Below, one piece after another: positions 2,835-27,275 of a stretch of DNA of 64,000 nt. The position numbers and the translations under genes are program-made. The number at the start of each line of letters is the position of its first letter. The stretch's first letter is position 1. The DNA is taken from assembly GCF_023653455.1 (NCBI RefSeq), contig NZ_JAKEDR010000001.1, positions 1 to 64,000 on the forward strand, given 5' to 3'. The stretch comes from Paraclostridium ghonii (GTDB lineage Bacteria > Bacillota > Clostridia > Peptostreptococcales > Peptostreptococcaceae). The notes beneath the pieces were generated by a model. The model ran no database searches. It saw only the letters and a program-made list of their open reading frames with translations, and was not told where the DNA came from.

Positions 2835-3085
2835 TAAAAAATCCGCCCTAAATAAATAGGACGGATATATTTTCCGCGGTACCACCTAAATTATATGCAC
2901 TTATTTGCATATCACTTAATAATTTCTGCTATAACGTGCAGTCACGATATCAGCTACTCTTTAATTTTAAATTTCACCTAATTCCTCCAAGGTCCATTCA
3001 TTAAATTTATTTATATTGAGCTCTCAGCTTCCTCAATTCTCTGTATTAAATAATCATTTTAACTACTAATCCTCTTCATTGGATA
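2835..3085 (-). promoter_or_regulatory. T-box leader of mtnN, probably methionine-specific
   Basis: On the minus strand, Stem I begins near 3082 (GAAGAGG, then AGTA) and includes the GGAAGCTGAGAG segment. The T-box sequence AGGTGGTACCGCGG lies at 2887-2874. A G-C-rich terminator follows at 2866-2835 (ATCCGTCCTA pairing with TAGGGCGGAT, then six T). The specifier region reads GAATGGACC: AUG (Met) at 2997-2995 or UGG (Trp) at 2996-2994, depending on register. The acceptor-binding bulge UGGU matches a tRNA with A73, as in tRNA-Met; bacterial tRNA-Trp usually has G73. The gene's role also favours Met. The T-box itself is certain; the specifier is less so. Confidence 0.9.
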
Positions 3086-3103
3086 TTTATATTTTTTATT
3101 TAT

Positions 3104-6463: not shown

Positions 6464-6715
6464 CAAAAAAACCCGTCCCTGGAAAGGGACGAGTTGTTAC
6501 TCGCGTTACCACCCTAATTTTACAAATGTACGTAATTTATACATTTATAACACTCTTTCAATATAACGGTATTTAACCGGCACAGCTTAATAGATTAATC
6601 GTTCAGCCTGCAGCTTAGGAGTGATTTTCATTTTTATAAATTTATTGGTTCTCAGCTTCCCCCAACTCTCTGTAAAATTATCTAAAAACTACTCTCTCCA
6701 TCATAGCATTTAACA
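6464..6715 (-). promoter_or_regulatory. T-box leader of ileS, isoleucine-specific
   Basis: On the minus strand, Stem I begins near GATGGAGAGAGTAG, with the closing helix GGAG/CTCC. The specifier is AUC (6625-6623) in GAAAATCACTCC. The T-box sequence AGGGTGGTAACGCG lies at 6515-6502, and its UGGU bulge matches the A73 of tRNA-Ile. The terminator stem CGTCCCT/AGGGACG (6491-6474) is followed by TTTTTTT. Uncharged tRNA-Ile should favour readthrough into ileS. The specifier agrees with the gene. Confidence 0.95.
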
Positions 6716-24162: not shown

Positions 24163-24192
24163 ATAAAAAAAAATGACCATATCGGCCATTTT
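24163..24192 (-). terminator. Intrinsic terminator of the GGDEF/HD-GYP gene
   Basis: On the minus strand, the stem AATGGCC/GGTCATT (24190-24184 and 24178-24172, one G-U pair) is followed by TTTTTTTATTC. It abuts the stop codon at 24192-24194. Confidence 0.8.
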
Positions 24193-25877
24193 TAATTATT
24201 TTTTAATTCTATCATACTTATAAATTTTTCTACCAGCATAGGATCAAACTGACTTCCTGAACATCGCCTTAGTTCTTTTATAGCTTCTTTATGTCCTTTT
24301 CTAGTATTATATGGCCTATGAGATGTCATTGCATCAAAACTATCTGCTATAGATATAATCCTTGCTAAATAAGGAATCTCTTCTCCTTTTAGATTATCAG
24401 GGTAACCTCTTCCATCATATCTTTCATGGTGATGTTTTATAGCTGGTAGCAACTCTTCAAAAGCTTTAATATGTTTTATCAAGGATATCCCTAACTGCGG
24501 ATGTTGTTTTAACATCTCATATTCTGAATCTGTAAGACTTCCTTTTTTGTTTAAAACTTCTTCTGGAATTTCAATTTTTCCTATATCATGAAGATAAGCT
24601 GCTAATTTTAAACTTAACTTATCCTTTTCATTTAATTTTAAATAGTTAGAAAACCAACCTAAGTAAATTGCTACTCTTTCTGTATGACCATATGTATATC
24701 TATCTTTTTTATTTATCATATTTATAAGTCTTTTTAATGATTTAGCTGTTTCTTTATCTATATATATATGATCTGAAATTTCTTCTAAAACACTATAGTA
24801 TACCTCTACTCTATTCTTATTAAGTGATTTTGCTCTATAAAGTGCATCATCCGCAGTATTTATAAACTGATGTTTATTGCTCGCTCTTAGAGGATATGAT
24901 GATACTCCTATTGATATAGTCATATTTTTATTTGGTTGATTTTCTTGACCATAAAAATATGTGTTTTCTATATTAGTTCTAATTCTTTCTCCTACGCTTA
25001 TAGCCTCTTCTTCTATAGTATTTGGAAGTATTACAGCAAATTCTTCTCCGCCATACCTTGCAACAATATCATTCTCCCTTACACTTTCTTTTAATATCTG
25101 CCCTACATCTTTTAAAACCACATCCCCTGCTTGATGCCCATTTATATCATTATAATTTTTAAAATAATCAATATCCATAAAAAGCATTGATATAGAAGTG
25201 TTTTCATTATCAGCGAATTCCATTAAAGTTTCTAAAGATTCCTGGAAGTATCTATGATTATACAAACCTGTTAATTCATCTACATTAGCTAAGTTTTGAA
25301 GTTCTTTACTATGTTCTTTTTCAATATTTACGTACATGCCTAGTATCCATGAAGTTACAAAAAATGCACTTACTATAACTATATCAATTTGAAAATAATT
25401 CGTAATTAACTCTTTAGCAGGCTCTTGAAGATGAGTTCCAAATTGTATTGAAAGTATATCTACTCCACAAACTAATATAGAACAAACTATAGATACAATC
25501 ATGGCATAATTTCTTCCAAATTGTATTGCCGCGATTATGATTATAAAAATATATAGAAATTTATACGGACTTTCTTCTTTTCCTGTTGACATTATTACAA
25601 CTGTACATATTAGCATTAATAAAATTGTTTCTATGTTATCTCTAGGTTTTGCTGGATTGTCCATAAACTTATACTGCCTCTTCGATAACCATATAAAATA
25701 AACTATAAGAAGTATTATTATTGCAACTATATATATATAAAATAGCATGTAGTAGTAGCTTTTTATTGTTGTATAAGAACTTATCATGGCAACCATACCT
25801 AAAAGCATATATATAACCTTTATTGTAGCTAATATTTCAAATAATTTTTTATTCCTTATATTTTCAAACTCATTCAT
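24192..25877 (-). CDS. Bifunctional membrane GGDEF / HD-GYP cyclic-di-GMP enzyme
   Basis: A 561-residue membrane protein. Five or six membrane spans fill about residues 12-185. A GGDEF domain (about 195-360) has the active-site ARYGGEEF and an intact RxxD inhibitory site (REND, exactly five residues upstream). An HD-GYP domain (about 375-555) has LHDIGK, HHERYDGRGYP and the other expected His/Asp residues. Both halves look active, so the protein could make or degrade c-di-GMP depending on membrane input. It lies directly downstream of the agr unit, separated by a strong palindrome. That neighbour suggests, but does not show, a link between peptide signalling and c-di-GMP. Confidence 0.93.
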   Translation of the reverse strand: MNEFENIRNKKLFEILATIKVIYMLLGMVAMISSYTTIKSYYYMLFYIYIVAIIILLIVYFIWLSKRQYKFMDNPAKPRDNIETILLMLICTVVIMSTGKEESPYKFLYIFIIIIAAIQFGRNYAMIVSIVCSILVCGVDILSIQFGTHLQEPAKELITNYFQIDIVIVSAFFVTSWILGMYVNIEKEHSKELQNLANVDELTGLYNHRYFQESLETLMEFADNENTSISMLFMDIDYFKNYNDINGHQAGDVVLKDVGQILKESVRENDIVARYGGEEFAVILPNTIEEEAISVGERIRTNIENTYFYGQENQPNKNMTISIGVSSYPLRASNKHQFINTADDALYRAKSLNKNRVEVYYSVLEEISDHIYIDKETAKSLKRLINMINKKDRYTYGHTERVAIYLGWFSNYLKLNEKDKLSLKLAAYLHDIGKIEIPEEVLNKKGSLTDSEYEMLKQHPQLGISLIKHIKAFEELLPAIKHHHERYDGRGYPDNLKGEEIPYLARIISIADSFDAMTSHRPYNTRKGHKEAIKELRRCSGSQFDPMLVEKFISMIELKNN

Positions 25878-25903: not shown

Positions 25904-25941
25904 TTAATAAACCATAAGGATATATCCTTATGGTTTATTAA
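25904..25941. terminator. Perfect 38-base palindrome at the end of the agr unit
   Basis: 19-base arms with no loop (25904-25922 and 25923-25941) include AAACCATAAGGATA. It lies 3 bases from the AgrD-like stop codon. It probably ends the agr transcript, though neither strand has a long T tract, so pausing or RNase-resistant 3'-end formation is also possible. Confidence 0.6.
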
Positions 25942-25943
25942 AA

Positions 25944-26063
25944 TTATTCTTCTCTTAATGATTTTGGCATTTCTGGTTCAAAAAATGCCATAGCACACAT
26001 TGTAGATGCACTACTCCCTAAATTCATTATAAAATCTGAGAATAAGTTTGATAAAAAGCTCAT
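25944..26063 (-). CDS. agrD: AgrD-like autoinducing-peptide precursor
   Basis: A 39-residue open frame too short for most gene callers. An amphipathic N-terminal helix (MSFLSNLFSDFIMNLG) is followed by SSASTMCAMAFF, the candidate thiolactone peptide, and an acidic C-terminal tail EPEMPKSLREE. This matches AgrD architecture, including the Pro-Lys-x-Leu motif of the tail. Aligned on that motif, the ring would be CAMAF (five residues), with the tail preceding Cys23. The mature ends are inferred. GGGGG precedes the ATG, and the gene starts 21 bases after agrB. Ring size, exocyclic tail and the presence of a second F could differ in the real product. Confidence 0.88.
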   Translation of the reverse strand: MSFLSNLFSDFIMNLGSSASTMCAMAFFEPEMPKSLREE

Positions 26064-26084
26064 ATCTAATCCCCCTTAAAATAT

Positions 26085-26726
26085 TTATTTAAGAAAACAA
26101 TCTAATTTTAATATAATTGTTTCTCCTAACTTAGTTATTGCTATAGTTTGTAAAATAATTCCTAGTTCTATACAATACACAAACATAGCCACATCATAAT
26201 TTAAAAACCCAGTTACCCTAAATATCAAAAGTAAAATTATGATTATAATATACATATTAAGCCTTTTAAATAATTTTTTTCTAAGTTTTTTTCTTGTAGA
26301 CTCTTTTTTTAAAGGCTTATTTTTTGTTCCAATTGGTGCTTTTTTATAAAAAATATAATAGCATGATATTATACTTACTATGCTGAAAACATATATAAAA
26401 CTATAACCCCCATATTTGTTAAATAAAACTGAAATGTATGTTAATATCAATGCTGTTATAATCCCTATTATTAAACATCTATTTGGAGAAGTTGCATGTA
26501 CACCACCTGAAAACTTTTTTAAACTAGATGCAACAATAGTTATTAATACAACTTCTATTGTTTTTCCTATAATTATACCAACTAAAACAGTTGATAAAAA
26601 AGCTAATACCGTATGTAACCAAATAAATAATCCATAATTCATAATTTCTATTTCTTCTTTAGTCTTATTTGCTTTGCTCCCTATCTTATTTGAAATATTA
26701 TAAGAAATATTTTCTATTACAGCCAT
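26085..26726 (-). CDS. agrB: AgrB-family membrane protease for peptide maturation
   Basis: A 213-residue membrane cysteine protease that cleaves the AgrD C-terminus and forms the thiolactone ring. The catalytic pair is His77 and Cys84 in FSGGVHATSPNRC, the same numbers as in S. aureus AgrB. Membrane segments lie around 35-65, 85-105, 115-130 and 155-205. A basic stretch (KNKPLKKESTRKKLRKKL) is consistent with the family. An eight-G tract (26733-26740) acts as or near the ribosome-binding site. It is the middle gene between a sensor-like membrane protein and the AgrD-like peptide. Confidence 0.95.
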   Translation of the reverse strand: MAVIENISYNISNKIGSKANKTKEEIEIMNYGLFIWLHTVLAFLSTVLVGIIIGKTIEVVLITIVASSLKKFSGGVHATSPNRCLIIGIITALILTYISVLFNKYGGYSFIYVFSIVSIISCYYIFYKKAPIGTKNKPLKKESTRKKLRKKLFKRLNMYIIIIILLLIFRVTGFLNYDVAMFVYCIELGIILQTIAITKLGETIILKLDCFLK

Positions 26727-26748
26727 AGCTCTCCCCCCCCTATATATA

Positions 26749-27210
26749 CTAAATTTTACTTATTATTTTAGTTATTAAGTTTAATATAATAATCAATAAA
26801 ATAAATATTATTAATGATGGAAGTGATAATATAGCACTATTTATGCTTGTATTATTAGTTAGTGCTTCTGTTGGTATTTTTAAAATCTCATTAGCCATAA
26901 CCATGTATATAACTTCACTCATGGCTAAGCATATATAAATCTTAGACACATTAAGTACAGTTGTTATAATCTGCTGATTTTCAAATTTATAAAAAATTAT
27001 TCCTATTATAAACATACTAAATACTGTATGTATACCAAAACTTATAGGCATCATTCTTATGCATGTTAATAAAATTAAAAAAAATAAAGAGTTTTTGATA
27101 AGATTTGTTAATTCTATCCTTAAGCCAAATAAAATATATCCAGCTAAAATTAGAAAAACGCTTTCTGGAAAGCTTCTGATTATTAAATATGATAATGATG
27201 AATCCAACAT
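26749..27210 (-). CDS. AgrC-like sensor-domain membrane protein lacking a kinase
   Basis: A 153-residue membrane protein with five or six predicted spans (about residues 8-27, 37-52, 58-76, 88-106 and 125-150). The N-terminus RSFPESVFLILAGY with an MPISFGIHTV motif resembles the membrane sensor half of GHKL (AgrC/ComD-type) kinases. No HisKA, HATPase or linker helix follows; the gene stops and agrB starts after 22 bases. It could receive the peptide for a kinase elsewhere, act as a decoy or immunity-like sink, or assist AgrB. The sensor-like call is by recall and pattern; a search would be needed to confirm it. Confidence 0.6.
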   Translation of the reverse strand: MLDSSLSYLIIRSFPESVFLILAGYILFGLRIELTNLIKNSLFFLILLTCIRMMPISFGIHTVFSMFIIGIIFYKFENQQIITTVLNVSKIYICLAMSEVIYMVMANEILKIPTEALTNNTSINSAILSLPSLIIFILLIIILNLITKIISKI

Positions 27211-27246
27211 TCAATTCTCCCTCTTTACTAATATTATCCAACATAA

Positions 27247-27275
27247 ATTATAGCATAATTTACATTTTTTTACAA
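27247..27275 (-). promoter_or_regulatory. Sigma-A promoter of the agr unit
   Basis: The -35 TTGTAA (27275-27270) and -10 TATAAT (27252-27247) have a 17-base spacer with TG at the extended -10 position on the minus strand. It lies between the sigG terminator and the sensor gene, so the unit has its own vegetative-type promoter. Confidence 0.7.

Follow-up and report, generated by a model that had tools for sequence, protein, structure and literature searches.

A four-gene Agr-type cassette of Clostridia with a candidate receptor half and a c-di-GMP enzyme

The canonical agrBDCA system consists of AgrB with a His/Cys pair, AgrD with a Cys ring and an acidic tail, the kinase AgrC, and AgrA. Extracellular signals reach c-di-GMP turnover in two described systems: RpfC/RpfG, which carries a diffusible signal factor to an HD-GYP domain, and NspS-MbaA, where a separate sensor protein controls a membrane c-di-GMP enzyme. 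In clostridia, some agrBD loci come without a gene for the receptor. One account (PMC10602386) gives the receptor of AgrD1 from the C. difficile Agr1 system (agrB1D1) as unknown and names VirS/VirR, a kinase pair encoded elsewhere, as the receptor for the agrBD locus of C. perfringens, which has no receptor operon of its own. No AgrC1 or AgrA1 has been identified in C. difficile, according to another source (PMC8534292). The incomplete Agr systems of C. autoethanogenum are described with kinases, and that description uses none of the words c-di-GMP, diguanylate or GGDEF (PMC8748961).

Here we analyze a locus of the spore-forming bacterium Paraclostridium ghonii within a 64,000-nucleotide stretch of DNA (the window). 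The locus resembles agrBDCA of S. aureus in having an AgrB with His/Cys, an AgrD with a Cys ring and acidic tail, and a membrane sensor, but it has no AgrC kinase or AgrA, its putative sensor half is a separate protein (here called X), and the neighboring candidate output is a c-di-GMP enzyme. It shares with C. difficile Agr1 an AgrBD pair lacking an adjacent AgrC/AgrA, and with C. perfringens the lack of a receptor operon of the AgrC/AgrA kind, although in C. perfringens the receptor lies elsewhere whereas the present unit itself encodes a candidate receptor. The likeness to RpfC/RpfG and NspS-MbaA lies in the path from an extracellular signal to c-di-GMP turnover, and for NspS-MbaA also in the separate sensor protein, but those systems belong to other bacteria and have neither an Agr peptide nor an AgrC-like sensor half. 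The cassette seems, from its gene content, to be an Agr signaling system with a receptor half and a c-di-GMP enzyme instead of a kinase relay, found in several families of Clostridia. In searches of open-licence PubMed Central, no title or abstract opening described an agrBD locus with X or a GGDEF-HD-GYP protein as partner.

Layout of the unit and its parts

The unit lies on the minus strand between sigG and ylmC, ends at 24192, and reads X, agrB, agrD, and a gene for a membrane domain joined to GGDEF and HD-GYP domains. Its promoter, TTGTAA-N17-TATAAT with an extended -10 element (27247..27275, minus strand), has 10 of 12 matches. A promoter scan alone does not rise above chance (26 sites found, 27.7 expected); both hexamers and their 17-bp separation are shared by all five same-genus loci examined (the window and L031-L034), where the promoters stand 35-36 bp before the ATG and one of the five reads TATACT. 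The genes sigG and sigE lie upstream of X, and a Pfam and NCBIfam search of the window placed neither a kinase nor a regulator in the interval from sigG to the c-di-GMP gene, so the AgrC kinase and AgrA regulator of an Agr operon are missing here. These features agree with the initial annotation, which had placed sigE and sigG upstream of a single sigma-A-driven unit without agrC/agrA; its promoter stands, but its count of three genes becomes four, since the c-di-GMP enzyme is part of the unit, which extends to 24192. Elsewhere in the window are two T-box leaders (2854-3088 and 6482-6713, minus strand).

The first three genes are not chance frames, because they encode conserved proteins (X is 26-80% identical to 22 aligned relatives), and their products were correctly described from the start: a 153-residue membrane protein, an AgrB with His77/Cys84, and a 39-residue AgrD with a predicted CAMAF ring. 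X (26749..27210, minus strand) is a five-helix membrane protein that we propose as the sensor half of a split AgrC-like receptor. The agrB gene (26085..26726, minus strand) encodes a 213-residue protein of the AIP-processing membrane endopeptidase type that scores 118.4 bits against PF04647 (cut-off 23) and carries the catalytic His77 and Cys84; the spacing His-x6-Cys recurs in all 33 distant AgrBs, and a search of phages gave no AgrB match. The agrD gene (25944..26063, minus strand) encodes the precursor, in which the predicted ring CAMAF is followed by FEPEMPKSLREE. With this Cys ring and charged tail it scores 25.1 bits against NCBIfam TIGR04223 (cut-off 19) and 17.5 bits against the staphylococcal AgrD model PF05931 of Pfam, under the cut-off of 22.7. 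The ring pattern Cys-x-x-x-Phe is found in 24 of 25 family loci, with variable positions 2-4.

The source genome carries two further AgrB genes. A second agr locus (L057, on contig C7; 2258-10616) encodes AgrB, an AgrD containing ECCCIAFHYEPEIPNELLEE, an AgrC-type kinase and a LytTR regulator, and adjoins YcaO, Lant_dehydr_C and nitroreductase genes, as in a cluster for an azole-modified, bacteriocin-like peptide. The third AgrB (L058, on contig C345; 4050-4637; 73 bits) adjoins neither an AgrD nor a GHKL kinase that could be recognized readily.

A conserved RNA hairpin (25904..25941, minus strand) separates agrD from the enzyme gene. Of 71 family genomes, 11 contain the pattern CCATAAGG-N2-12-CCTTATGG, each of them once and always in the gap between agrD and the enzyme gene. 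In an alignment of the spacers of 23 of the 25 family loci (all except L053 and L054), 98.1% of the cells are paired, and changes on both sides are seen for 10 of the 14 pairs; none of 500 shuffles equaled the alignment in paired percentage, number of changed pairs or covariation score, and four of 500 reached the number of pair types. Most spacers of at least 33 nt in other lineages hold different hairpins, as judged by eye, and the 6-12 nt spacers of three loci (L142, L143, L144) hold none. In the window no T-run follows the hairpin on the coding strand, which suggests a partial terminator or a stability element; the hairpin may set the amount of enzyme made per peptide precursor.

The last gene (24192..25877, minus strand) encodes a 561-residue membrane-anchored GGDEF and HD-GYP protein, the proposed output subunit, with scores of 166.6 bits against PF00990 and 151.1 bits against PF13487. 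It carries GGEEF, the inhibitory I-site, HDIGK, HHE and GYP, and by these motifs seems to be a candidate maker and breaker of c-di-GMP. All catalytic motifs are present in 35 of 36 aligned enzymes, the window included (the L146 enzyme lacks GG[DE]EF), and the inhibitory site in 23 of 36. Alignment and structure modeling delimit an N-terminal membrane domain (the N domain; 25308..25877, minus strand) of six helices (pLDDT 83.8, pTM 0.80). This domain scores 18.4 bits against 6TM_PilS (PF25323), under the cut-off of 27, and a PDB sequence search returned designed and oxidase proteins at E 0.012 to 0.5, which led nowhere.

Conservation and joint absence of the four genes

In a search of 71 family genomes, 27 matched X at E <= 0.01, 25 of them clearly; the two weak matches L029 and L030 (regions L055 and L056) were dropped, as no agr genes are found there, and so was, for the same reason, the weak match L178. 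The order X-AgrB-AgrD-GGDEF_HD is kept on one strand in the window and in all 24 other clear family loci, counting loci in which AgrB (L046) or X (L053) is truncated or displaced and loci at contig ends (L047 and L051). The X-AgrB-AgrD order of the initial annotation is kept in relatives, then, with the enzyme gene as its fourth member. Romboutsia lituseburensis and Anaerosolibacter carboniphilus are two named relatives that have the unit. The block sits beside sigG in 19 of the 25 family loci and elsewhere in six (L045, L048, L050, L051, L053 and L054).

Outside the family, all four genes are found in 22 of the 30 distinct loci examined (L138-L158, L161-L166 and L168-L170). In L146, L147 and L149 the enzyme frame as called overlaps agrD at its 5' end; the enzyme is split in two in L161 and cut in L154, and it has no recognized N domain in L144, L147, L151 and L153. 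Among the other arrangements, L141 has X-AgrB-AgrD with no adjoining enzyme gene, L150, L152 and L156 are incomplete at a contig end or fragment, L155 has an inverted AgrB, and L165 and L169 have X and the enzyme with no AgrBD beside them, in genomes that each have three AgrBs elsewhere. In L163, X-AgrB-AgrD lies near an N domain that is fused to a histidine kinase in place of the enzyme. Neighboring X copies are seen in six loci (L142, L147, L151, L153, L154 and L155). As a separate observation, the gene immediately before X in Clostridium senegalense and Parasporobacterium (L139 and L140) encodes a DUF5317 membrane protein, and genes of 187-199 aa that look similar occur in L145, L148 and L158.

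The cassette sits in many places, because the genes flanking it fall into 11 to 21 groups, a number that depends on the cut-off: 11 without an identity limit, and 14, 18 or 21 at 35, 40 or 45% identity (50 loci other than the window, including the duplicates L160=L138 and L167=L143).

The strongest single result comes from genomes in which the site next to sigG is empty. A sigG match at E 1e-100 was found in 54 of the 71 family genomes, of which 19 have the block there and 34 have no X there (the remaining one, G047, was left out of this judgement). In 20 of 20 genomes examined among the 34, sigG is followed by ylmC, nrdR, pgeF, phoP and phoR, so that X, agrB, agrD and the enzyme gene are absent together, and six of the 20 carry all four genes elsewhere. 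This joint absence ties the c-di-GMP gene to the agr genes. We rejected the explanation that the c-di-GMP gene is a mere neighbor on the basis of the empty site and the moved copies.

X and the N domain also occur together across the wider set of 297 genomes, in which the X profile matched 63 and the N-domain profile 48, in counts that are inflated by genome relatedness and shared inheritance. X lies within 5 kb of 36 of 38 N-domain places at E < 1e-30; the exceptions are G121, whose enzyme lacks a neighboring X or AgrBD, and G047, which was left unjudged. Conversely, the N domain is near all 36 strong X places (E < 1e-20), in 35 on the enzyme and in one on a kinase (G182, the locus L163), and near none of 46 weaker X rows (82 X rows were counted, leaving out a second piece in G065 and the rows of G019 and G078, against 38 N-domain rows). 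A unit with a sensor and no output does not agree with these counts.

Kinship of X to the sensor halves of GHKL kinases

X has no Pfam match over cut-off and none in NCBIfam or PHROGs, and a search of plasmids gave no match. Comparison with the PDB returned chance-level rows only, with a best fold-search E of 1.3 (none <= 0.001) and sequence rows at E 0.31 and 0.85. The model of X (pLDDT 90.5, pTM 0.84) has five long helices. R52, P55, I56, F58, G59 and H61, at the loop between helices 2 and 3, are invariant in 23 close rows; across 69 wider rows only G59 is invariant, with R52, F58 and H61 kept at >= 90%. This loop holds 0.19 Lys/Arg per sequence, compared to 1.39 in loop 1 and 0.87 in loop 3, and the C-terminal end holds 3.38, but the long loop 4 holds 1.54. 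By the positive-inside rule, the conserved RxxPIxFGxH loop is probably outside, a weakly marked assignment, and the C-terminus is probably inside.

An X-like stretch forms the N-terminal half of a 458-aa GHKL kinase in a locus of the same genus (L159), on which Pfam finds SPOB_a and HATPase domains, and a second fused GHKL kinase with an X-like N-terminus lies in the source genome on contig C155 (L070/L203), where it is cut by the contig end. Comparing X to these N-termini with hhalign gave probabilities of 95.7-98.3% (E 9e-9 to 2e-14), against 0.2-0.8% for control profiles of AgrB, ECF, DUF5317-like proteins and the N domain. Among 29 further membrane-rich stretches, the 25 that are neither X nor fused kinase gave at most 1.1% against X, bar one, the N domain of one of the enzymes themselves, at 15% over 36 columns. 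Seven other GHKL sensors, some cut at contig ends, gave a weak 40% match to one (the sensor L066 was left out of this comparison). The fused kinase in L159 lacks the His of the conserved X loop.

These comparisons support X, in kind, as the sensor half of a GHKL (AgrC-type) receptor. The reading of X as resembling half of AgrC, as in the initial annotation, fares well where two GHKL kinases are concerned, but not for the canonical AgrC of the genome itself: X has no detectable similarity to the AgrC of the agrBDCA locus on contig C7 (probability 0.1). The N-terminus of that AgrC matches only itself (one of 71 family genomes), and no canonical AgrC profile could be built for that reason.

X-like proteins also occur beside separate kinases. 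Of 20 regions with weak X matches that we examined, 11 have the order AgrB-AgrD-X-kinase, with short kinases of 281-310 aa carrying two hydrophobic N-terminal segments (three were called in L185). In three loci (L171, L175 and L176) X and a short kinase lie by AgrB and a 241-aa regulator, with AgrD found only in L176, where Pfam recognizes receiver and LytTR domains. In all, 14 AgrB loci place X next to a short GHKL kinase encoded by its own gene; the kinases in L175, L176 and L179 were confirmed by Pfam and the rest assigned with a custom profile built from five of the kinases. X plus the short kinase looks like a split AgrC-like receptor, given the kinship of X to the fused kinase and the hydrophobic segments, which number five plus two in the fused kinase and five in X.

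X seems to switch partners. On a tree of 91 X sequences (without L053, L160 and L167), having a kinase partner needs two changes and having the enzyme as partner eight, compared to 14.9 and 28.9 in shuffles; eight is too high, because the label "other" for L150, L152, L154 and L156 comes only from contig ends or fragments, and the fused kinase row forms a long branch of unsure placement.

Two minor observations concern these more distant loci. In five split-kinase loci (L179, L180, L181, L185 and L188) the AgrD precursor has Ser or Thr at the position of the ring Cys, which would perhaps give lactones rather than thiolactones. In 13 loci (L172, L173, L174, L177 and L190-L198), an X-like protein was found in a stretch without AgrB, where the two neighbors that we tested are, in L174, a component of an ECF transporter and, in L193, an amidohydrolase.

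Proposed signaling route and its alternatives

We consider it fairly probable that X and the N domain form the peptide receptor, and c-di-GMP the output, of a four-gene Agr-type quorum-sensing cassette. AgrB would cut and cyclize AgrD to give a five-membered thiolactone, CAMAF, which may carry a short tail and would leave the cell. X together with the six-helix N domain would then receive the peptide, as X and a short membrane kinase may do as a split AgrC in other Clostridia, and binding would shift the balance between c-di-GMP synthesis and breakdown. Binding, contact between X and the enzyme, and the direction of the effect are inferred.

An alternative that we regard as unlikely is that the N domain is the whole peptide receptor and X an accessory that tunes or stabilizes it. 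As a complete-looking six-helix input domain the N domain could sense alone, and it is seen fused to a histidine kinase in L163 and on the G121 enzyme, which has no X beside it; against this account, X is present at 36 of 38 N-domain places, shows homology to the sensor halves of kinases, and is the obvious candidate for the sensor where short kinase subunits adjoin it. It is somewhat more doubtful that a pair of the AgrC/AgrA type, encoded elsewhere in the genome, senses the peptide and that X and the enzyme do another job. The source genome has room for such a pair, with 12 GHKL matches of at least 52 bits (two of them short fragments) and 15 LytTR matches, and the naming of VirS/VirR as the AIP receptor of C. 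perfringens, in a passage of PMC10602386, is a precedent for a receptor pair elsewhere, but it would not explain why four genes move and vanish together.

That X aids AgrB in peptide processing or export is very improbable. X immediately precedes agrB in all 25 family loci, but it also occurs apart from AgrBD in L165 and L169 and as part of fused kinases, and AgrB matches 120 of the 297 genomes against 63 for X; we rejected X as an AgrB accessory on the first two of these grounds. Hardly credible is the suggestion, raised in the initial annotation, of a stand-alone sensor that may only bind and sequester the peptide, passing no signal on: Pfam and NCBIfam do recognize no kinase (dimerization or HATPase) or other catalytic domain in X, but X co-occurs with a signaling enzyme or kinase in most X-bearing AgrB loci examined, and the enzyme is kept with X in 11 to 21 neighborhoods and lost or moved with it.

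Returning to a receptor formed by X and the N domain, we lean, if only slightly, towards a general class in which a cyclic peptide acts on c-di-GMP within one membrane complex, the AgrC sensor half X being an interchangeable module that joins a short membrane kinase in some cases and a GGDEF-HD-GYP enzyme in others, with members spread over several families of Clostridia. With such a class, the receptor could be put to the test for at least one group of "orphan" AgrBD loci. If the proposal is true, a large group of clostridial agrBD loci without a receptor gene would gain a receptor and an output, an Agr peptide signal need not pass through a two-component relay, and X would name an unannotated sensor family that can be paired with different outputs. 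C. difficile Agr1 was set aside as a member: none of 36 named loci in a one-pattern scan for X is from Clostridioides, and eight genomes of one genus (g4, taken as a guess to be Clostridioides) have no match to X or the N domain, so the cassette is probably not the missing C. difficile receptor.

The direction of the effect is a guess, based on riboswitches and on reports from C. difficile, that the peptide lowers c-di-GMP. At high density, breakdown of c-di-GMP would increase, which would relieve riboswitch control of flagella and a brake on sporulation. The source genome has one c-di-GMP-I riboswitch (L208, 1501-1587) and two c-di-GMP-II riboswitches (L209, 793-877; L210, 1501-1583), a set-up similar to that known from C. 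difficile. In C. difficile, c-di-GMP is reported to inhibit early sporulation (PMC8653836), and an agr locus to raise the expression of flagellar genes and to influence the transcript levels of GGDEF/EAL genes (PMC3754575). Judged by eye, the c-di-GMP-I riboswitch of the source genome lies ahead of flgB, flgC and fliE, and the two c-di-GMP-II riboswitches lie by genes that resemble response regulators.
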